Origin: Tannerella sp. | GTDB taxonomy: Bacteria; Bacteroidota; Bacteroidia; Bacteroidales; Tannerellaceae | Reading direction: 5' to 3' | Length of the DNA: 10,317 bases | Assembly (NCBI GenBank): GCA_031288935.1 | Contig: JAITQL010000230.1 | Location: 1-10,317 of the forward strand | Shown here: positions 1 to 10,317 of the stretch, in pieces | Numbering within the stretch: the stretch's first letter is position 1 | Layout of the letters: the number at the start of each line of letters is the position of its first letter | The notes under the pieces: generated by a model | What the model was told of the DNA's origin: nothing | Databases searched by the model: none | The model's input: the letters and a program-made list of their open reading frames with translations, nothing else | Position numbers and translations under genes: made by a program

Positions 1-462
1 TACGACCTGTATTCCCGGAAAATGATGGGAGTCTGTCTGCGCTATGTCGGCGACAGAGAGACGGCGCGTGACTTGCTGCAGGACGGTTTCATCAGAGTGT
101 ATACTTCGCTCCATACGTACACCGGAGCGGGGGCGCTGGAAGGATGGATCCGCATGGTCTTTGTGAACGGGGCGCTGGAATATCTGCGCAAGCGGGACAT
201 CCTGCGGGATTCGACGGACATCGCAAACATGTACGAGGTGCTGGAAGACCGGGAAACGGCCCTCTCGAACATCTCGGCCGAAGAACTGATGGCAGTGGTG
301 CAGTCGCTGCCGGACGGGTTCAAGGCCGTATTCAACCTGTATGCCATCGAAGGCTATTCGCACAGGGAGATCGCCGGGATGCTGCATATTACGGAAAGCA
401 CCTCGCGTTCGCAGTACGTAAGGGCAAGGAAATGGTTGCAGGAACGGATCGAACGGTATTAA
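1..462 (+). CDS. ECF-type RNA polymerase sigma-70 factor (5' end outside window)
   Basis: This is an alternative sigma factor that would redirect RNA polymerase to a small set of promoters, typically in response to an envelope signal. The frame is open from base 1 (YDLYSRKMMGVCLRY), and the Met at 22 lies inside the conserved region 2 core, so the true start is upstream of the window. Visible are most of sigma region 2 (MMGVCLRYVGDRETARDLLQ, then the stretch ending FVNGALEYLRKR) and a C-terminal region 4 helix-turn-helix (LPDGFKAVFNLYAIEGYSHR, then EIAGMLHITESTSRSQYVRA). About 153 residues are present; the family is usually 160-190, so only some 20-40 residues are missing. The stop is TAA at 460-462, and the barrel protein starts 17 bases later, which suggests co-transcription and a sigma/membrane-partner pair. 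Family assignment is firm; the regulon is unknown. Confidence 0.93.
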   Translation, partial: YDLYSRKMMGVCLRYVGDRETARDLLQDGFIRVYTSLHTYTGAGALEGWIRMVFVNGALEYLRKRDILRDSTDIANMYEVLEDRETALSNISAEELMAVVQSLPDGFKAVFNLYAIEGYSHREIAGMLHITESTSRSQYVRARKWLQERIERY

Positions 463-1744: not shown

Positions 1745-2524
1745 ATGAAAAAAAGAACTTTGACATGGCTTCGCGCCATTTTGTGCGTAACAGCAATAAC
1801 GATGTTTACTGCCTGTCTCGAAGGCGGCAGGAATACAATGAGCGACTCCACCATCGGCATCGTCCGTTTCGACACGAAGACGGCCCGGAAGGTGCTGGAC
1901 GTCTACGGAGGAGTGTTCTACTCCCCGACGTTCGACAACATGCAGGAGGGCGCGTGCTGCTACATTGCTTTCGAGGTAGACTTCAACGCTCCTGAAAACG
2001 ACCCGGCCGTACTGGAATTGAACGGCTATTACACCGTCACGGTCACCTACAAGGAAGATATTGACAAGTACATGATGTCGCCCGGCACGCTGACCGACAC
2101 GACGCAGGTGCTGGCGGACGAGACGCCGGTCACGAACGCGCTGGACACCAAACTGGGCTACCTGAACGGCGTGCTCTTCATGGCGCACCAGCTGAAAAAG
2201 GCCTCCGACCAGCGGGAAATATGGGATCTCTCCTACGATATGCAAAACCGGATGACGGAAGAAAGCGGACGGCACATCTACAACGTCTACCTGCGCGCCA
2301 CCGTGCGTGTGTCGAGCGCCAAAACGCAGGAAGAAGGCTACGACGTATGCGCCTACGAGATGAAATACTTCATGGACACCGCGGCGGAGCAGGAAAAGAA
2401 CGCCGGCCAGACCACGTTCTACATCCGCTTCCATTACGTATCCGAAATCAACGGCGACATCCTCACCTGGAAACACGCGGACATGGAAATGAACGTGGGC
2501 GAGGTCATCACAACCGCCCCCTGA
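1745..2524 (+). CDS. Lipoprotein of unknown function, possibly NigD-like
   Basis: The protein has 259 residues. The N-terminus is a lipoprotein signal peptide: positively charged start (MKKR), hydrophobic stretch, and a lipobox-like MFTAC with the acylated Cys at residue 24. The next residues (LEGG) carry only one acid, so the acid-rich surface-export signal described for Bacteroidetes lipoproteins is not obvious and the final membrane face is uncertain. The mature part is acidic, rich in Tyr, Thr and Asp, and shows beta-strand patterns near residues 140-260 (KLGYLNGVLFMAHQL, HIYNVYLRATVRV, TTFYIRFHYVSEING). The layout vaguely recalls NigD-like lipoproteins of Bacteroidales, but I cannot establish this by eye. 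It starts 41 bases after the barrel gene on the same strand and is followed by a terminator, so it is probably the last gene of the sigma/barrel operon. No enzymatic motif is visible. Confidence 0.78.
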   Translation: MKKRTLTWLRAILCVTAITMFTACLEGGRNTMSDSTIGIVRFDTKTARKVLDVYGGVFYSPTFDNMQEGACCYIAFEVDFNAPENDPAVLELNGYYTVTVTYKEDIDKYMMSPGTLTDTTQVLADETPVTNALDTKLGYLNGVLFMAHQLKKASDQREIWDLSYDMQNRMTEESGRHIYNVYLRATVRVSSAKTQEEGYDVCAYEMKYFMDTAAEQEKNAGQTTFYIRFHYVSEINGDILTWKHADMEMNVGEVITTAP

Positions 2525-2618: not shown

Positions 2619-4034
2619 TCAATCGAACGAATCCGAAGTTCCCAGACCCGGGTCTGAAGTTTCCAGACCCAAGTCTGAAGTTTCCAGACCCAAGTCCGAA
2701 GTTTCCGTACCCAAGTCCGAAGTTTCCGTACCCAAGTCCGAAAAGTTCGTACCCAAGTCCGAAGCGTCCGGCTGCTCCGCGATCATGCCCGCGCCCACGG
2801 TTTCAAAAGTCGATTCGTCGATGAGAACAAGGCTTCCGGTGATGCGGTTCCGGCGGTAGAAGTCGTACTTGAGCGGTCGGGAAGTCTTGAGTTCGATGCT
2901 GGCAATGTCGTTCATCCGGACGGTCTTTTCTCCGGCAACGTTCTCGAGCGTATTCATGTTTACCTTGTAATGAACGTCTCGGACGATGCCGAAGAGTTCG
3001 TCGGTTGCATGGCGGACGATGTAGCGGGCGCCCACGCTCAGCGGCCGGTGGTGGAGCCAGCAGACGGTCAGGCGGATGTGTGCGCCGACGAGGGGCAGTT
3101 CGCTGCTTTTGACGATCATGTCTCCGCGGCCGACGTCCACGCTGTCCGCCAGCCGGATGGCGACCGACCGGGGCGAGGAGGCCTCGTGGAGCGGGCGGTC
3201 GGCCTCGTCGATGGCCGTGATGGTGGACTGCGTGCCGGAGGGCAGGACGGTGACGGCGTCGCCCACGCGGTACGTGCCGGAGGCGATCCGTCCGGCACAG
3301 GCGCGGTAGTCGTGGAAGGCGGCCGTTTGCGGGCGGATCACGTACTGCACCGGAAAGCGCGCCGGCCGGTCGTCGAGCGTTTCCCTGAGCGGGAGCGTCT
3401 CCAGCAGCGACAGCAGCGGGGCGCCTTCGTACCAGGCCATGCGGGTCGAGGGCGTAACGACGTTGTCGCCCTCCAGGGCCGAGATGGGCAGGCAGTGCAC
3501 GTGCTGCAGGTGCAGCCGGGCGGCCATGGCCGCGTATGCGCCGCGTATGCGCAGGAAGACGTCCCGGTCGAAATGGACCAGATCCATCTTGTTGACCGCC
3601 ACGATGACGTGCGGCAGTTGCAGCAGGGCGGCGATGCAGGAATGGCGGCGGGTCTGCTCGATGATGCCGTTGCGGGCGTCGACCAGGATGATGGCGGCGT
3701 CGGCCGTGGAAGCGCCGGTCACCATGTTGCGCGTGTACTCGATGTGCCCCGGCGTGTCGGCAATGATAAACTTGCGTTTGGGCGTGGCGAAATACCGGTA
3801 GGCCACGTCGATGGTAATGCCCTGTTCGCGCTCGGCGCGCAGGCCGTCGGTCAGCAGCGCCAGGTTGACGGCCTCGTTCCCCAGCCGCTCGCTGGCAGCC
3901 CGCACGGCCTCCATCTGGTCTTCAAAAATGGACTTGCTGTCGTAGAGCAGCCGCCCGATGAGGGTGCTCTTGCCGTCGTCCACACTGCCGGCCGTAGTGA
4001 AGCGCAGCAGTTCCATGTCTAAATATCCGTTCAT
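2619..4034 (-). CDS. cysN: Sulfate adenylyltransferase subunit 1 (GTPase subunit), with repeat tail
   Basis: CysN hydrolyses GTP to drive formation of adenosine 5'-phosphosulfate from ATP and sulfate by its partner CysD. The 471-residue protein has all elongation-factor-like GTPase motifs: P-loop GSVDDGKS (16-23), QGITID (71-76), DTPGH (93-97), NKMD (148-151) and SAL (185-187). The beta-barrel domains then run to about residue 420. Residues 425-467 are a heptapeptide repeat (SDLGTET type) ending in SDSFD. This tail is not part of the conserved enzyme, which would otherwise end near VGAGMIAEQ at about 412-421. ATG 4034 is used; an in-frame ATG at residue 7 (MELLRFTTAG) is a possible alternative. 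It follows cysD by 25 bases on the same strand and converges on the lipoprotein gene. A fused APS kinase domain, seen in some relatives, is absent. Confidence 0.96.
   Translation of the reverse strand: MNGYLDMELLRFTTAGSVDDGKSTLIGRLLYDSKSIFEDQMEAVRAASERLGNEAVNLALLTDGLRAEREQGITIDVAYRYFATPKRKFIIADTPGHIEYTRNMVTGASTADAAIILVDARNGIIEQTRRHSCIAALLQLPHVIVAVNKMDLVHFDRDVFLRIRGAYAAMAARLHLQHVHCLPISALEGDNVVTPSTRMAWYEGAPLLSLLETLPLRETLDDRPARFPVQYVIRPQTAAFHDYRACAGRIASGTYRVGDAVTVLPSGTQSTITAIDEADRPLHEASSPRSVAIRLADSVDVGRGDMIVKSSELPLVGAHIRLTVCWLHHRPLSVGARYIVRHATDELFGIVRDVHYKVNMNTLENVAGEKTVRMNDIASIELKTSRPLKYDFYRRNRITGSLVLIDESTFETVGAGMIAEQPDASDLGTNFSDLGTETSDLGTETSDLGLETSDLGLETSDPGLGTSDSFD
2635..2760 (-). repeat. Six tandem copies of a 21-base repeat inside the 3' end of cysN
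   Basis: Six contiguous 21-base units start at 2635, 2656, 2677, 2698, 2719 and 2740. Copies 4 and 5 are identical, copies 2 and 3 differ at one base, and copies 1 and 6 are more diverged. Read on the minus strand they encode heptapeptides: SDLGTNF, SDLGTET, SDLGTET, SDLGLET, SDLGLET, SDPGLGT. The period is a multiple of three, so gain or loss of a unit keeps the frame. There are no spacers, so this is not a CRISPR array. Confidence 0.95.
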
Positions 4035-4059: not shown

Positions 4060-4959
4060 TTAAAAATAGCCGGCTTTCTTCCGGTCTTCCATGGCGGCGT
4101 CGGAACGCTTGTCGTCCGACCGTCCGCCGCGTTCGGTGACGCGCGAGGCAGCGATTTCGTTCACAATCTCCTCCAGCGTGTTCGCTTCGGAAAGGGTCAG
4201 CCCCGTGCACGTAATGTCGCCGATGGTACGGCAGCGTACCCGCCTGCGCACCGCCGGCTCGTCCGGCTTCCGCTTCATGAACGGGTAGCAGGCCAGCCAG
4301 ATGCCGTCGCGTTCAAACACCTCCCGCTCGTGCGTGTAGTACAGGCTCGGCAGTTCGATCCCCTCTTGCAGGATGTAATGCCATATGTCCATCTCCGTCC
4401 AGTTGCTCAGCGGGAAGATGCGGAAATGTTCGCCCGGCTGCTTTTTGCCGTTGAAGATGTTCCACAGTTCGGGACGCTGGTTCCTGGGATCCCACTGTCC
4501 GAACTCGTCGCGGTGCGAGAAGAAGCGTTCCTTGGCGCGCGCCTTTTCCTCGTCGCGGCGGGCGCCGCCGAGCGCCGCGTCGAACTTGTACTTTTCGAGC
4601 GCGTCCAGCAGGGTGACGGTTTGCAGCTTGTTGCGGCTGGCGTTGTATCCCGTTTCCTCCGCCACGCGCCCGCGGTCGATGGACTCCTGCACGGAGCCTG
4701 TGAACAGCCGCACGCCCAGCCGTTTCACCAGCGTGTCGCGAAAGGCGATCGTTTCCTCAAAGTTGTGTCCCGTGTCGATATGCAGAAACGGGAACGGGAT
4801 GGCGGCCGGATAAAACGCCCGGCAGGCCAGGTGCGCCATGACGATGGAATCCTTTCCGCCCGAAAACAGCAGCACGGGTTTCTCGAACTGCGCCGCCACC
4901 TCGCGGATGACGTAGACGGATTCCGATTCCAGTTCTTTTAAATGGGTCAGCTTGCTCAT
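4060..4959 (-). CDS. cysD: Sulfate adenylyltransferase subunit 2
   Basis: CysD is the catalytic subunit that adenylates sulfate to APS in the first step of sulfate activation; it works as a complex with CysN. The protein has 299 residues from ATG 4959 (the E. coli enzyme is about 302). The N-terminal LTHLKELESESVYVIREVAA is followed by the PP-loop ATP-pyrophosphatase motif SGGKDS (33-38). Further family blocks are PFLHIDTGHNFEE, ALGGARRDEEKARAKERFFS, FRIFPLSNWTEMDIW and the C-terminal AAMEDRKKAGYF. The frame can be extended five codons to a TTG at 4974, but that TTG lies in the putative -7 promoter element and the family begins near MSKLTH, so the ATG is preferred. Its stop is 25 bases before cysN and its start is 26 bases after the hemB stop. 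No cysC, cysH or sulfite reductase gene is in the window. Confidence 0.96.
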   Translation of the reverse strand: MSKLTHLKELESESVYVIREVAAQFEKPVLLFSGGKDSIVMAHLACRAFYPAAIPFPFLHIDTGHNFEETIAFRDTLVKRLGVRLFTGSVQESIDRGRVAEETGYNASRNKLQTVTLLDALEKYKFDAALGGARRDEEKARAKERFFSHRDEFGQWDPRNQRPELWNIFNGKKQPGEHFRIFPLSNWTEMDIWHYILQEGIELPSLYYTHEREVFERDGIWLACYPFMKRKPDEPAVRRRVRCRTIGDITCTGLTLSEANTLEEIVNEIAASRVTERGGRSDDKRSDAAMEDRKKAGYF

Positions 4960-4971
4960 AGCATTTTTTTG

Positions 4972-4979
4972 CAAAGGTA
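4972..4979 (-). promoter_or_regulatory. Possible -7 element of an internal promoter for cysDN
   Basis: Read on the minus strand, 4979-4972 is TACCTTTG, an exact TAnnTTTG match. No convincing TTTG is found 19-21 bases upstream (the sequence there is GTGT/AGTG). It sits in the 26-base gap between hemB and cysD and would give a leader of about 5-10 bases before ATG 4959. Without a -33 element it could be chance. Confidence 0.4.
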
Positions 4980-4985
4980 ATACAT

Positions 4986-5966
4986 CTACATAAATTTAAC
5001 ACTACCCGAATCCACAAAATCTTTTGCGTAATAGGAAATGATATGCGTGGCGCCCGCCCGCTTGATGGCGGTCAGGCTTTCAAGGAAGATCCGCTTCCCG
5101 TCGAAGAAACCGGCCCTGGCGCCCTGCTTCAGCATGGCATATTCGCCCGACACCTGGTAGGCCACCAGCGGATAGCCGGGAAAGCGAACCGCCGCCCGCT
5201 GCACCATGTCCAGATACGGCATGGCGGGCTTTACCATGATCCACGCGGCGCCCTCCTCGATGTCGGCCGCTATTTCGTCCAGTCCCTGACCGACGGTGCG
5301 GAAGTCCATCTGGTACGTTTTGCGGTCGCCGAACGAAGGCGCCGAGCCGGCCGCGTCGCGAAAGGGGCCGTAGAAGGCCGAAGCGTACTTGGCGGAATAG
5401 CCCAGTATGCGCGTGTGGCCGAAGCCGTCGCGGTCGAGCCGCGCGCGGATGGCCTGCACCTGCCCGTCCATCATGGCCGAGGGAGCGACGAAGTCGGCGC
5501 CCGCCGCCGCGTGCCCGGCAGCCATCTCGGCCAGCAGCGGCAGGGTGGCGTCGTTGTCCACGTCGTGCCCGTGTACCACTCCGCAGTGGCCGTGCGACGT
5601 GTATTCGCACAGGCAGACGTCGGTAAAGACGGTGATGGACGGAAAGCGCTCCTTGACGGCGCGCACGGTCCGGCAGACGAGGCTGTCGGGCGACGTGCCC
5701 GCGCTGCCGCGCCCGTCCTTTACAGCTTCGGGAACGACGCCGAAGAGCAGTATCTTGTCGATTCCCGCAGCGGCCAGCGTAGCGGCGTCGGCCAGCAGTT
5801 CATCCGTCGACAGGCGGCAGATGCCCTCCATCGTCGCAATCTTCTGCCTCACGCCTTCGCCTTCGGTCACGAAATACGGATAAATAAAATCGGAGGCCGA
5901 AAGGCTCACTTCGGCCTGTTCGTCACGCACGGCCTGCGTGGTGCGAAAATGTCTAAATCGTTTCAT
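4986..5966 (-). CDS. hemB: Porphobilinogen synthase (5-aminolevulinate dehydratase)
   Basis: HemB condenses two 5-aminolevulinate molecules into porphobilinogen, the pyrrole building block of all tetrapyrroles. The 326-residue protein is full length. It has the two Schiff-base lysines in their usual contexts (GYSAKYASAFYGPFRDA, Lys193; WIMVKPAMPYLDM, Lys246). It also has the zinc-type cysteine triad TDVCLCEYTSHGHCG (Cys118, Cys120, Cys128), so it belongs to the Zn-dependent rather than the Asp-rich Mg-dependent class. The family signature GADFVAPSAMMDG is intact. The start ATG at 5966 lies inside the end of the upstream fusion gene (14-base overlap), which indicates translational coupling. 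cysD follows 26 bases after its stop. Confidence 0.97.
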   Translation of the reverse strand: MKRFRHFRTTQAVRDEQAEVSLSASDFIYPYFVTEGEGVRQKIATMEGICRLSTDELLADAATLAAAGIDKILLFGVVPEAVKDGRGSAGTSPDSLVCRTVRAVKERFPSITVFTDVCLCEYTSHGHCGVVHGHDVDNDATLPLLAEMAAGHAAAGADFVAPSAMMDGQVQAIRARLDRDGFGHTRILGYSAKYASAFYGPFRDAAGSAPSFGDRKTYQMDFRTVGQGLDEIAADIEEGAAWIMVKPAMPYLDMVQRAAVRFPGYPLVAYQVSGEYAMLKQGARAGFFDGKRIFLESLTAIKRAGATHIISYYAKDFVDSGSVKFM

Positions 5967-8007
5967 ATAATTCGGATTTTAATTTTTCGGCGGTTGTCTT
6001 TCCCTTTGCCACCAGCTGAATGCCGGACGGAAGAATACCGGACGGAAGGGCGCCGTACAGCCGGATAAAGGCGTCGACGCCGGAGGGCGACGCAAAGATG
6101 ATTTTTCGGTAGCCGGACAGGTCGGCCGCTTTCGCCGCCGCGTTGACCCGGTTGCTGTATGCCGGCGCCTCGGTCACGTCGTGACCCATTCCGGCCAGCG
6201 CTTCCGGGAGGTATTTCACCGCCCTGTCCGACCGGGGCAGCAGGATGCGCTGCGCCGGCTCTCCCGCGGCTGCGAAGGCGCGTACCAGCCCTTCGGCCGA
6301 TTCGTCGTCGGGTTGCAGATCGGGACGGATGCCGTGTTTGCGCAGTTCGGCCGCGGTAGTTTTCCCCACCGACGCAAAGCGAAGCGGCGCCAGCATCCGG
6401 ACGTCGGACTGCATCCGGTGAAAGGCTTCGAAAAAGTAGCGCACGCCGTAGCGACTGGTGAAGACGACCCACTGAAAGGTATCCAGCGCGCGCACGGCGT
6501 CGTACAGCGGCCCGCTGTCGGCAATCCGTCCGATTTCGATCAGGGGCGTATGCGTCACGTTGGCATCCGGGTCGTGCGTTCCGGCAGAGGTGCCGGTCAC
6601 CAGCACGGGTTGCGTCCGGGCGGCTCCGCTTTCAAAGGCCACCGTTTCGCCGACGAGGATCAGGATCGGCGTCGGGCAGTGAACCGCCGAGTACTGCAAC
6701 TCGCCGAGCGTGGAGAAGCACACCTTTTGATCGGGCATCGACACGTTGCTCACCAGTGCAACGGGCAGTTCCCGGCTGCGTCCGGCGGCAATCAGCCGTC
6801 CGGCAACGGCGGCGACGTGCGCCCCGCCCATGTAGTAAACCAGCGTGTCGGCATTGGGTGCGGGCGCCTGCAGTCCGGCATGTCCCGAGACAAACGCGAC
6901 GGACGACGCCCGCCCGCGGTGTGTAAGCGGGATGTGCGTGCAGGCCGCAGCGGCGATGCCTGCCGACACGCCCGGCACGACGTGCACCGCTACCAGACGG
7001 CGTTGCAGGAAGTCGATCTCTTCCCGTCCGCGGGCAAAGATCATCGGGTCGCCCCCCTTGAGGCGCACCGTTGTCCGTCCGGCGATGGCCGCCCGATAGA
7101 CCTGTTCGTTGATTTCGTCCTGATGAAAGCGGTGATGCCCCTTGCGCTTGCCGACGTTGATCTTTTCGCCCGGATAGCGCGACAGGCAGGCGTGGTCGAT
7201 CAACTCGTCGTGAAAGATCGCGTCCGCTTCGGCCAGCGCCCGGTCGCCGCCGATCGTCAGCAGGTCTCTATGCCCCGGGCCGAAGCCGACGAGCGTCACC
7301 CGTCCGTATTGCCGGCGGATGTCGCGGTCGCAAAACAGGGCGCCGAGTTCCGGGCGGTCTTTCCGTCCGACCAGAGCCAGATGGCCTTGCAGGGGATGGG
7401 TGCGGAAGGGAAGCGTCTCGGCCATGCGGCAACTTTCGCCCAGACGTTTCAGGGCGCAGGTAGCCACAACGAGGGCGTCGACGGCGCCACTGTCCACCTG
7501 CGCAAGACGTTCGCCGACCGTACCCCGGATGCTCACGATTTGCAAGTCGGGACGCCGCCGCAGGAGTTCATCCCTCCGCGTCGGCGAGCTTGTCCCCACA
7601 CGTGCGCCGGCCGGCAGCCCGTCCAGCGGCAAGTTGTCCCTGCTCACCAGCGCGTCGGTACGGTCTGCCGCCTCAAGCAACGCATACACGTCCAGTTCCG
7701 GAGGAAGCGGATACGGCAAATCCTTGGCCGAATGAACCGCCACATCCGCCTCGCCGCGAATCAGCAGTTCGTCCAGTTCACGGGTAAAGAAATCGGGCGG
7801 CACCCCGTTCCCTCCATCCCCGCCGGCATCCAGCAAAGAAATATGTTTGTTTTTGTCGCCACAGGAATCCACCGCAGTCAACCGGCAGTCAAGTTTCGGG
7901 AAAAACGAAAAAGCCTCTTCCACCTGAAGCAACGAAAGCGGACTTCTCCGGCCGACCACCCTTACTATTACACTATCCGTTCTTACTCCACACATACTAC
8001 CCAACAT
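5953..8007 (-). CDS. Trifunctional fusion: truncated hydroxymethylbilane synthase / uroporphyrinogen-III C-methyltransferase / uroporphyrinogen-III synthase
   Basis: The protein has 684 residues in three parts. Residues about 14-229 resemble HemC domains 1 and 2: VVGRRSPLSLLQ, VAVHSAKDLPYPLP (Asp96 matches the catalytic Asp), VGTSSPTRRDELL, SIRGTVGERL. It ends at HPLQGHLALVGRKDRPELG with no domain 3 and no EGGC cofactor-attachment cysteine. Residues about 236-455 are a complete SUMT/CobA: LVGFGPGHRDLLTI, RLKGGDPMIFARGREE, VPGVSAG, CTHIPLTHRG and PTPILILVGE. It would make precorrin-2 with S-adenosylmethionine. Residues about 466-684 are HemD-like (WVVFTSRYGVRYFFEAF, VGKTTAAELRKHGI, ILLPRSD, IIFASPSGVDAF). 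Start ATG 8007 is listed; ATG 7995 (MCGVRTDSVIV) is equally possible given the promoter at 8022-8052. SUMT and HemD assignments are firm. The HemC part is homologous, but its activity is doubtful. Confidence 0.93.
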   Translation of the reverse strand: MLGSMCGVRTDSVIVRVVGRRSPLSLLQVEEAFSFFPKLDCRLTAVDSCGDKNKHISLLDAGGDGGNGVPPDFFTRELDELLIRGEADVAVHSAKDLPYPLPPELDVYALLEAADRTDALVSRDNLPLDGLPAGARVGTSSPTRRDELLRRRPDLQIVSIRGTVGERLAQVDSGAVDALVVATCALKRLGESCRMAETLPFRTHPLQGHLALVGRKDRPELGALFCDRDIRRQYGRVTLVGFGPGHRDLLTIGGDRALAEADAIFHDELIDHACLSRYPGEKINVGKRKGHHRFHQDEINEQVYRAAIAGRTTVRLKGGDPMIFARGREEIDFLQRRLVAVHVVPGVSAGIAAAACTHIPLTHRGRASSVAFVSGHAGLQAPAPNADTLVYYMGGAHVAAVAGRLIAAGRSRELPVALVSNVSMPDQKVCFSTLGELQYSAVHCPTPILILVGETVAFESGAARTQPVLVTGTSAGTHDPDANVTHTPLIEIGRIADSGPLYDAVRALDTFQWVVFTSRYGVRYFFEAFHRMQSDVRMLAPLRFASVGKTTAAELRKHGIRPDLQPDDESAEGLVRAFAAAGEPAQRILLPRSDRAVKYLPEALAGMGHDVTEAPAYSNRVNAAAKAADLSGYRKIIFASPSGVDAFIRLYGALPSGILPSGIQLVAKGKTTAEKLKSELYETI

Positions 8008-8256: not shown

Positions 8257-8287
8257 TTTGCCGGTTAAAGGAAAAGCGCTACCTTTG
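8257..8287 (+). promoter_or_regulatory. Bacteroidetes-type promoter of the ATPase gene
   Basis: TTTG at 8257-8260, a 19-base spacer, and TACCTTTG at 8280-8287 match the Bacteroidetes -33/-7 consensus exactly. The start of transcription should be near 8291-8294, about 11-14 bases before ATG 8305. This placement excludes the in-frame GTG at 8287 as a start codon, because it lies within the -7 element. Confidence 0.82.
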
Positions 8288-8304
8288 TGCAAATTGAACA
8301 TGCG

Positions 8305-9486
8305 ATGCACAATTTACACGAATTTATCAGGAGGCGTTTGGAACCGGACATTTATAAACGCTTGAACATCTTCCCGGCCGTATTGATTCTGGGTTCGAGG
8401 CAGTGCGGGAAATCTACCTTGGTCAAAATGTTGGCGCAGGGAAAGGATCATTTTGTTTATCTTGACCTGCAAAATGCCGCCGACATAAACAAACTGACCG
8501 AACCGGCGCTGTTTTTTGAGGCAAACGACCCTTCGGTACTGTGTCTGGACGAGATACAGTCGGTTCCCCATCTGTTTTCCGCACTGCGCAGCGAAATCGA
8601 CCGCAATCGCCGTCCGGGACGTTTCATCTTGCTTGGCTCCGCTTCGCAGGAGCTGATTCAAAAATCATCGGAAAGTCTGGCCGGCAGAATCGGAATCGTT
8701 GAACTGTCGCCTTTTTCGATAGACGAACTGATGCTTCACAATGCCGAAACGGACTTGCATGTCTGTTGGAACAGAGGAGGCTATCCCGAAAGTTTTCTGG
8801 CGGCCGACGATGAAAGCAGTTGCCTGTGGCGCGAAGATTTTATCAAAACCTACGTGCAACGGGATATTCCGCAGCTGGGCTTTCAAATTCCCGCCGTGCA
8901 GATACGCCGTTTCATGACTTTGTGCGCCCACCTGTCGGGGCAGTTGCTCAACACGTCCAAAATCGGCGAATCGCTGGGCATGGCGCATACTACCGTGAGA
9001 AGATACATCGACCTGCTGGAACAGACGTTTCTGATCCGCACGCTTCCGCCCTTTGAAACCAACGAAAAAAAGCGGCTGGTAAAGTCGCCGAAACTGTATG
9101 TCCGAGACACCGGCATGTTGCATCAGCTGCTGCAAATCGGGGATTACAATTCGCTGCTGGGAAACCCCGTTTTCGGCGCATCGTGGGAAAGTTTCGTGGT
9201 CGAAACCCTGTGTTCGGTTTTCAACGACTGCCGATTCTCGTTCTACCGGAGCGCTACGGGCGACGAACTGGACTTGATCATCCAAAAAGCGGAAACAACT
9301 ATCGCCGTGGAATGCAAGGCGTCTGCCGCACCGCAGGTTACAAAAGGATTCTGGCGGGCCATCGAATTTGTGAAACCGCAAAAATCATTTGTAATCGCCC
9401 CCGTCAAGGCAAATTATCCGATACATGAACATGTGGAAGTTTGCGGATTGAACGGGGCGCTGGCAAAACTTTCCGGGTTGCTTTGA
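8305..9486 (+). CDS. ATP-binding protein, AAA_14 domain plus DUF4143 domain
   Basis: The protein has 393 residues from ATG 8305. It shows Walker A GSRQCGKST (30-38), Walker B VLCLDEIQ (78-85), a sensor-like LLGSAS (109-114) and a helix-turn-helix-like segment (KIGESLGMAHTTVRRYIDLL, 219-238). The C-terminal part carries E300, then GDELDLII and IAVECKA (Asp320/Glu321/Asp323, Glu336, Lys338). That pattern resembles the E/D...ExK core of PD-(D/E)xK nuclease folds. The RNA or DNA target and true role of this widespread bacterial and archaeal family are not established, and many members occur as multiple copies per genome. Base composition is lower in GC (about 48% in a 60-base sample) than the neighbouring hem genes, which suggests separate acquisition. 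It is monocistronic between its own promoter and a convergent gene 87 bases downstream. Confidence 0.92.
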   Translation: MHNLHEFIRRRLEPDIYKRLNIFPAVLILGSRQCGKSTLVKMLAQGKDHFVYLDLQNAADINKLTEPALFFEANDPSVLCLDEIQSVPHLFSALRSEIDRNRRPGRFILLGSASQELIQKSSESLAGRIGIVELSPFSIDELMLHNAETDLHVCWNRGGYPESFLAADDESSCLWREDFIKTYVQRDIPQLGFQIPAVQIRRFMTLCAHLSGQLLNTSKIGESLGMAHTTVRRYIDLLEQTFLIRTLPPFETNEKKRLVKSPKLYVRDTGMLHQLLQIGDYNSLLGNPVFGASWESFVVETLCSVFNDCRFSFYRSATGDELDLIIQKAETTIAVECKASAAPQVTKGFWRAIEFVKPQKSFVIAPVKANYPIHEHVEVCGLNGALAKLSGLL

Positions 9487-9573: not shown

Positions 9574-10317
9574 TTAGAATCCCAGATCGGGATCGTTGTA
9601 TATCGCCAGACCGATTTGTTCCAGATTTTCATTCCGCCCGTTGTACCAGAGCATCCAGCGGTCTTTTTCCCGAATGGCGAAGGGTCGATAGCAGGCGCTT
9701 GCGTCCCAGTCGCCGGGAGTCGGGAAGATCACCGGATTGCCGGCGAAACGTACCCAGCCGGTGATGCCGTCGGGGGATTTTGCCATGCCGATCCGCGCAA
9801 GGTGTATATCCTGGAAGCCGATGTAAAACATCAGATAGTCTTTTTCCCGCTTGATAACCTGGGCGGCTGTTACTTTGTGCCGTTCCCATTCGAGGGCGGG
9901 GGCGGCGGAAAAGACGGGATTGCCGGCATGTTTTTCCCACCGCAGCCCGTCCGTGCTGACGGCGTAGCCGATGGCGTCAGGCTCGTACTGTTCGCCGCCG
10001 GAGTACCACATCTTGAATATTTTTTCCTGCCCGTCCCAAATGACGTGCGGACACATGACCGCCACCTTTTCCCATGCTTTTTCGGCGCCGAGAACCGGCT
10101 CGGCGCTGCGGCGGACGAAGGTTTTCCCGTCGGCGCCCGTCGCATAGCCTATCCACGAACGGCCGTCCGCCTGTCCGGTGTACCACAGGTGGTATATGCC
10201 GCCGACTTTGACGATTGCCGGACGGTTTATGTCCTTCTCCCACAGGGTCTCGCTGTTCGGAGCAAGTACGGTTTCGGGTTCCGACCAGTTCATTCCGTCG
10301 ACGCTGACGGACAGGGC
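9574..10317 (-). CDS. Beta-propeller protein resembling GH43/GH32-type glycosidases (N-terminal part outside window)
   Basis: The C-terminal 247 residues are visible. The frame is open to the window edge (ALSVSVDGMNWSEP), and the Met at 10293 is internal to a repeat, so the true start lies beyond 10317. The sequence is a series of similar blades: YHLWYTGQADGRSWIGYATG, KMWYSGGE..DAIGYAVSTDGLRWEKH..NPVF, YLMFYIGFQ..RIGMAKSPDG..GNPVIF and WMLWYNGRNENLEQIGLAI. Recurrent WY.G, IGYA.S.DG..W and NPV motifs are typical of the five-bladed propeller fold shared by glycoside hydrolase families 43, 32, 68 and 130. I cannot place the catalytic acids with confidence, so substrate and even activity are open. 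It ends DPDLGF with a TAA at 9576-9574, convergent with the ATPase gene. No clear terminator is seen in the 87-base gap. Confidence 0.72.
   Translation of the reverse strand, partial: ALSVSVDGMNWSEPETVLAPNSETLWEKDINRPAIVKVGGIYHLWYTGQADGRSWIGYATGADGKTFVRRSAEPVLGAEKAWEKVAVMCPHVIWDGQEKIFKMWYSGGEQYEPDAIGYAVSTDGLRWEKHAGNPVFSAAPALEWERHKVTAAQVIKREKDYLMFYIGFQDIHLARIGMAKSPDGITGWVRFAGNPVIFPTPGDWDASACYRPFAIREKDRWMLWYNGRNENLEQIGLAIYNDPDLGF

Follow-up and report, generated by a model that had tools for sequence, protein, structure and literature searches.

The hydroxymethylbilane synthases (HMBS, HemC) of Escherichia coli and human build a linear tetrapyrrole with the help of a two-pyrrole cofactor, which is carried on a cysteine of domain 3. 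Both the fold and the presumed chemistry of the protein described below are those of HMBS, and short proteins of this kind are on record in databases: there is a curated model, NF002202, which we take to represent chlamydial HemC, and some of the short entries are named 'hydroxymethylbilane synthase'. In the accessible text of a review, the cofactor on Cys242 belongs to the description of the enzyme (PMC7242693). Fusions of pathway enzymes have also been recorded: the available part of a fusion survey includes SUMT-UROS and PBGD-UROS pairs and the CysG-type fusion, and contains neither a HemC-CobA-HemD triple nor a shortened HemC (PMC4921024). Similarly, our literature search, for which subscription papers were mostly out of reach, recognised no paper on a HemC without domain 3 or on a HemC-CobA-HemD triple. 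Here we analyse a stretch of 10,317 nucleotides (the window) from Tannerella sp., contig JAITQL010000230.1 of assembly GCA_031288935.1, in which a single gene joins a HemC without domain 3 to SUMT (CobA) and HemD.

Based on domain matches, a predicted structure and comparisons between genomes, we consider the two-domain module very probably a working HMBS, because no complete HemC was found in the genomes concerned and because the module stays in place through two switches from SUMT to HemE. The best explanation overall, to which we give an even chance of being right, is that the fusion turns porphobilinogen into precorrin-2 for siroheme, the iron-containing cofactor of sulfite reductase, with HemC working without domain 3 via a tether at Cys184. 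The original prediction, made from the letters of the window, had described the domain composition. What goes beyond it is Cys184, which lies in domain 2, the lost Arg131, the run of siroheme genes, the derivatives of heme type and the two-domain HemCs that stand alone.

Architecture and conserved residues of the fusion

Three Pfam families cover the 684-residue fusion in succession, PF01379 at residues 15-220, PF00590 at 236-437 and PF02602 at 482-678 (Table 1). The first match is strong, with 155.7 bits against a cut-off of 22.1, and the HemC module superposes on domains 1 and 2 of HMBS with a root-mean-square deviation of 1.5-1.7 over 207-212 residues (1ypn, 7ccy_C, 1ah5). PF03900, the model of HMBS domain 3, has no match in the fusion, and the structure model likewise lacks this domain; in particular, a domain-3 fold was sought within residues 190-240 of the predicted structure and is not there. 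Pfam matches and model together bear out the original prediction, in which HemC has two domains, is joined to SUMT and HemD, and lacks domain 3 with its cysteine. By the narrower models, the fusion stays below the cut-off of the HMBS equivalog TIGR00212 (157.7 against 164, aligned to positions 1-208 of 293), which was passed by all six other two-domain proteins tried and by the protein of locus L117, and below that of NF002202 (155.5 against 251, with residues 12-233 on model positions 18-234 of 241). The SUMT module scores above the cut-off of TIGR01469 (219.2 against 185), and the last module matches PF02602 above cut-off and has the HemD fold, as expected of a uroporphyrinogen-III synthase.

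An assembly error or a frameshift as the origin of this architecture is virtually excluded. Such an artefact could arise in a setting like that of the window, a single 10.3-kb contig from an incomplete metagenome-assembled genome (MAG), but the database search that had been suggested for the three-domain architecture returned the HemC-SUMT-HemD trio of Pfam families in all 120 listed homologues, one of which is the window's own. The same modules are found in Dysgonomonas capnocytophagoides, Bacteroides neonati and Parabacteroides sp. Marseille-P3160, and the artefact is refuted by these homologues of the same make-up. The structure alignment covered 83 of the 120 listed homologues together with the window's protein.

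The residues of the active site were compared over 200 alignment rows (of 204), made up of 83 frames and 117 database proteins, with some overlap between the two sets; the 204 rows hold 182 distinct HemC parts. Equivalents of E. coli D84, K83, R132 and R155 are found in all 200 rows, those of R149 and R176 in 199, and that of R11 in all 192 rows with a letter at this position. In the window, D84, R11, R132, R149, R155 and R176 correspond to D96, R20, R144, R161, R167 and R188, respectively. For comparison, we used 30 canonical Bacteroidales HemCs, the best-scoring 30 of 45 and 30 of the 39 three-domain HemCs in the order sample described below. The Arg131 equivalent, an arginine in 30 of these 30, is T143 in the window and arginine in two of the 200 fusion rows. 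Similarly, K55 is present in 29 of the 30 canonical proteins and K59 in all 30, as compared to none and one of the 200 fusion rows, respectively, the alignment of this loop being loose. R232 and C242, each present in all 30 canonical HemCs, are gone along with domain 3.

In human HMBS, according to the part of PMC7907807 that was available, the Arg131 equivalent binds the acetate of ring C1, i.e. the ring on the cysteine, and ring C2 is contacted by S96, K98, D99, R150, A189, R195, Q217 and G218. The ring-C2 contacts are kept in the window as Ser93, Lys95, Asp96, Arg144, Ala182, Arg188, Gln207 and Gly208. Because the Arg131 equivalent is lost while these contacts are kept, the first cofactor-ring site looks partly dismantled and the second-ring site intact. 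In E. coli, the R131L and R132L exchanges both impair cofactor binding (PMC3945110, accessible part).

Cys184, at the position of E. coli Ala172, is present in 199 of the 200 rows and in 181 of the 182 distinct HemC parts, at a median pairwise identity of 0.61, and the next most frequent cysteine column reaches 63 of 200 rows. The canonical Bacteroidales HemCs have alanine (27) or threonine (3) at this position. In the model, Cys184 is located on helix 183-188, one turn ahead of Arg188 (Arg176 in E. coli), and its E. coli counterpart A172 has been seen in simulations to make contact with the pyrrole chain at P4M, P5M and P6M, from the four-ring stage onward (PMC3945110, in the text available). 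The sole row without Cys184, L112, departs from the consensus at six of the 50 positions with a conservation of 98% or more, including R161S, R188C and S140D, and every other row departs at two of them at most. In L112 the HemC part has decayed, and SUMT and HemD still match. Loss of Cys184 goes with apparent loss of the enzyme in this sole case seen, which fits a chemical role and is no proof of it. We tentatively propose, at somewhat less than an even chance, that the growing pyrrole chain is tethered on Cys184 in the window's clade.

The proposed mechanism would operate as follows. Porphobilinogen would bind at the kept ring-C2 site, i.e. at the eight window residues from Ser93 to Gly208 listed above, and Asp96 would deaminate it, while the growing chain would hang on Cys184 in the cleft. 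The chain would be extended to four rings and then released as hydroxymethylbilane, which the HemD module would close and the SUMT module would methylate, all on one polypeptide.

Genomes and gene neighbourhoods of the short HemC

The absence of domain 3 had originally been accounted for in two ways, either by a complete HemC encoded elsewhere, the fused part being structural or channelling, or by a cofactor held in another way. The genome of the window (G000; 1.85 Mb) is 55.66% complete, so that absence of a complete HemC from this MAG alone would not count. Among 123 genomes of the window's family, PF01379 was found in 25 and PF03900 in three. The other 22 of the 25, G000 included, lack PF03900 and each have a PF01379 frame of at least 664 residues; they were classed as short-type by PF01379 and this fusion-like frame length alone, and completeness is at least 90% in seven of them. 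A second PF01379 stretch is present in three of the 22, namely G342, G347 and, in part, G275. In G275 (also G380; Parabacteroides sp. Marseille-P3160, locus L057), the partial match lies at C5:2738822-2739217, in a 174-residue frame 1.4 kb upstream of the fusion gene.

In the order sample, an even sample of 247 genomes of the window's order, PF01379 was found in 45 genomes and PF03900 in 39. The six PF01379 genomes without PF03900 are the long-frame genomes G000, G030, G037 and G091, the latter three being 99-100% complete, and two genomes with matches cut by contig ends. PF03900 was also missing from all 23 genomes searched behind named loci, each of which contains PF01379; they were drawn from the genomes behind 80 loci (all 13 HemE loci, see below, and 10 others) and in part repeat earlier ones (G380 is G275, G385 is G030 and G386 is G037). 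Since PF03900 is missing from the short-type genomes of the family, the order and the named loci, a complete HemC elsewhere is not supported; a chain or cofactor held in another way is left standing.

It is very unlikely that a separate protein, diverged beyond the reach of PF03900, instead provides domain 3 in trans. This model is insensitive in places, being found in 10 of 74 genomes in the phylum of G383 although many of these had HemC frames of about 300 residues, and our neighbour mapping covered probes of known genes only. In the order sample, however, the PF01379 genomes all have PF03900 (39), save the four long-frame and the two contig-end-cut ones.

A scan of named genomes detected 213 encoding stretches. 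Among the best 80 of these, which were kept, nearly all are labelled Bacteroidales or a family of it, with Tannerella, Dysgonomonas, Parabacteroides, Paludibacter, Prevotella, Azobacteroides and Bacteroides neonati as sources; other labels are Termititenax (L085), a Babeliaceae MAG (L114) and a 'Treponema' MAG (L067). Relatives of the same architecture are common in Bacteroidales, cultured strains among them. In a tree of 78 of the 80 loci (L055 and L069 left out) with the window and G091, and with none of the 120 homologue proteins, the short HemCs and 31 canonical HemCs are found on opposite sides of one branch (100/100); the root is the midpoint and the bootstrap had not settled. The Bacteroidales-type fusion of L067 adjoins Azobacteroides on this tree, through a binning error or gene transfer.

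The fusion gene is the first of a tightly packed minus-strand run, followed by hemB, cysD and cysN (Table 1). The steps of this run lead from aminolaevulinate towards siroheme, with the addition of sulfate activation. All 11 short-type genomes tested, G000 and 10 others, contain a sulfite/nitrite reductase (PF01077, the family of siroheme enzymes). In L044, a sulfite/nitrite reductase at 12056-14440 (minus strand) combines two NIR_SIR halves with a C-terminal TusA domain.

Neighbour mapping, in which known-gene probes taken from E. coli and from the window were run against flanks of limited length, covered 83 loci and the window, i.e. 84 sequences representing 82 distinct loci (L044/L064 and L046/L101 are the same loci). 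HemB is encoded near the fusion in 74 of the 84 sequences, HemA in 56, HemL in 53, the CysG N-terminal domain in 46 and CysD in 36. SUMT is found in 71 and HemE in 13, the two together in none. In all 13 HemE loci the SUMT stretch (window residues 240-330) is down to 0-5 letters and Cys184 is kept. Ten of them, labelled Paludibacteraceae (one only Bacteroidales) and mostly from the rumen, encode HemC-HemD with the SUMT stretch deleted; the breakpoints were located in L100, L102 and L098, L100 aligning to window residues 15-238 and then 386-680. In the other three, from Prevotella (L117-L119), HemC is joined to HemA and HemD is separate, the domains having been checked in L117 (PF05201, PF01488 and PF01379). 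Further HemA-HemC fusions, with PF01488 and PF01379, are P0133, P0135 and P0337. HemN and protoporphyrinogen oxidase score above cut-off in L100 and L117, the two HemE loci examined. The tree forces at least two separate HemE-type origins inside the SUMT fusions, and in one genome, G377, a siroheme-type run and a heme-type run each include a short HemC of their own. It appears from these loci that the product changed from siroheme to heme, the methyltransferase being lost and the two-domain HemC retained.

These swaps bear on the proposal that the HemC part is a catalytically dead scaffold or channel, with hydroxymethylbilane coming from another protein or from outside. Such a role would agree with the loss of domain 3, Arg131 and the loop lysines, and L112 is an example of such a HemC decaying. 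We nevertheless find it quite improbable: three-domain HemC was not found in the short-type genomes, the catalytic residues are near-invariant, genes for HemB, HemA and HemL often lie alongside, and the module was retained through two switches to heme-type runs; judging from the genomes, one would not expect an inactive scaffold to track the pathway like this.

The coordinates of the fusion, its modules and the other genes of the window are collected in Table 1. Within the C-terminal tail of cysN, a tandem array at 2632-2764 (21-base unit, 6.3 copies, 89% match) adds an SDLGTET-like heptapeptide repeat past the end of the CysN model.

Table 1. Features of the window, with positions counted from its first nucleotide; residue numbers refer to the fusion protein.
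Feature	Position	Strand	Basis
HemC(domains 1-2)-SUMT/CobA-HemD fusion, 684 residues	5953..8007	-	single open reading frame
Two-domain HemC module, residues 15-232, without domain 3	7312..7965	-	PF01379 15-220; superposition on HMBS domains 1-2
Catalytic Asp96 (E. coli Asp84)	7720..7722	-	200/200 fusion rows
Cys184 (E. coli Ala172), candidate pyrrole-chain tether (putative function)	7456..7458	-	199/200 rows
SUMT (CobA) module, residues 235-458	6634..7305	-	PF00590; TIGR01469 and NF004790 above cut-off
HemD (uroporphyrinogen-III synthase) module, residues 465-682	5962..6615	-	PF02602 and HemD fold
hemB (porphobilinogen synthase)	4986..5966	-	PF00490; NF006762 above cut-off; 14-base overlap with fusion gene
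cysD (sulfate adenylyltransferase small subunit)	4060..4974	-	TIGR02039 above cut-off; 11 bases after hemB
cysN (sulfate adenylyltransferase large subunit)	2619..4034	-	TIGR02034 above cut-off; 25 bases after cysD
AAA_14/DUF4143 ATPase	8287-9486	+	domain match
NigD-like lipoprotein	1745-2524	+	domain match
ECF sigma factor	22-462	+	domain match
Glycoside-hydrolase-130-like protein	9574-10293	-	domain match

Stand-alone two-domain HemCs and the holding of the chain

Two-domain HemCs also occur unfused. In one homology search, 117 of 120 listed rows are proteins of about 220 residues with PF01379 alone, PF03900 being present in none of these rows; in another search, PF03900 is present in three of 120 listed rows. 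Named sources include Omnitrophota, Elusimicrobiota and Breznakibacter, and some of the proteins are labelled hydroxymethylbilane synthase by their source. That all known HMBS depend on the dipyrromethane cofactor, as previously stated, may hold for the characterised enzymes, but sits less well with these PF01379-only proteins, some of them named HMBS and none found to be characterised. P0305 and P0245 combine a two-domain HemC with PF01966, presumably an HD domain, and with PF01451, which we take to be a low-molecular-weight phosphatase domain, respectively.

From 222 proteins fetched, 188 were used (200-260 residues, M start, distinct), of which 187 cover the key positions; these came from searches with a Termititenax query and with an Elusimicrobiota-led profile, the best 120 of each, the resulting counts not being natural frequencies, and stand-alone proteins from short contigs may be cut. 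D84, R132, R149, R155 and R176 are kept in all 72 of the 187 proteins that lack a cysteine at the Ala172 position (Cys172), and Arg131 is kept in 115 of the 187. At E. coli position 107, a cysteine is present in 44 of the 72, a candidate alternative anchor.

Several points weigh against the proposed route to siroheme with a tether at Cys184. Cys172 is present in 115 of the 187 proteins and missing from 72, 13 of which have no cysteine anywhere. The cysteine share outside the fusions is lower still, since 24 candidates, all of them with the cysteine and maybe cut pieces of fusions, group with the fusions. On a rough tree, residue 172 changes nine times; canonical HemC is not one clade as drawn, E. 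coli and 30 others being separate root branches, and only the change count is used. In the locus L145 (genome G462), a cysteine-free HemC is encoded within the run HemA-HemC-SUMT-HemD-HemB-HemL. The simulated chain contact of A172 gives no information on how far away the ring carbon for a thioether would be, and loss of Arg131 is expected if the cofactor site was dismantled, but equally if activity was lost. Finally, siroheme may not be the sole product, given URO-D (HemE family) matches, to HemE or to methyltransferase relatives, in three of the 11 short-type genomes (one match at positions 101-346 in G000, partial matches in G341, and one nearly full-length and three partial matches in G355).

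A cysteine-held cofactor is probably not universal, as judged from these sequences, and the cysteine-free proteins, if working, would need no thioether at all. A covalent tether at the Ala172 position as a general feature was given up, and confined to the fusion clade, once cysteine-free two-domain proteins appeared.

Alternatively, the two-domain HemC may work with the dipyrromethane or the chain held non-covalently, through arginines, a lysine and backbone sites that are all kept, with another role for Cys184. This is a credible possibility, towards which the 13 proteins without any cysteine and the catalytic residues of the 72 without Cys172 point, as do the human ring-C2 binding residues (PMC7907807, available part) that the window keeps and the cysteine-free HemC of L145, which stands in a full pathway run in a genome that has a sulfite/nitrite reductase and no domain-3 match. 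We lean slightly against it for the window, however, as Cys184 is lost in its clade only in the decayed protein, and drift would be expected of a cysteine with a purely structural part. Furthermore, G462 belongs to the phylum of G383, in which PF03900 has low sensitivity, and absence of a match there is for this reason weak evidence.

As to the Cys184 tether itself, we consider it unlikely that it does without dipyrromethane altogether, the first porphobilinogen being placed directly on Cys184, exactly four rings being built and hydrolysis of the thioether freeing both product and enzyme, with cysteine-free relatives proceeding likewise without a covalent bond. If this were true, the enzyme would need neither domain 3 nor Arg131 nor a pair of stored pyrroles. 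More generally, a large natural group that lacks domain 3, with no cysteine at all in some members, would demonstrate that holding the cofactor on the domain-3 cysteine is a possible solution but not a necessary one. Such a group would also offer a small two-domain enzyme for dissecting how the chain is held and its rings counted, as well as a route from porphobilinogen to precorrin-2 on one polypeptide.

Comparison with known systems

With three-domain HMBS (cofactor cysteine Cys242 in E. coli, Cys261 in human) the fusion shares domains 1 and 2 and the equivalents of Asp84, Lys83, Arg11, Arg132, Arg149, Arg155, Arg176, Gln198 and Gly199. In contrast to these enzymes, it is without domain 3, its cofactor cysteine, Arg131 and the loop lysines, has a cysteine at the position of Ala172, and is joined to SUMT and HemD. 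The fusion aligns with NF002202 (PRK01066.1), the curated short HMBS model of NCBI with 241 positions, yet is not a member by its cut-off. The stand-alone HMBS of about 220 residues likewise have PF01379 only and the same catalytic residues; unlike the window's protein they are unfused, and 72 of 187 are without the cysteine. In joining neighbouring steps of the same path, the fusion resembles the CobA-HemD, HemC-HemD and CysG fusions.

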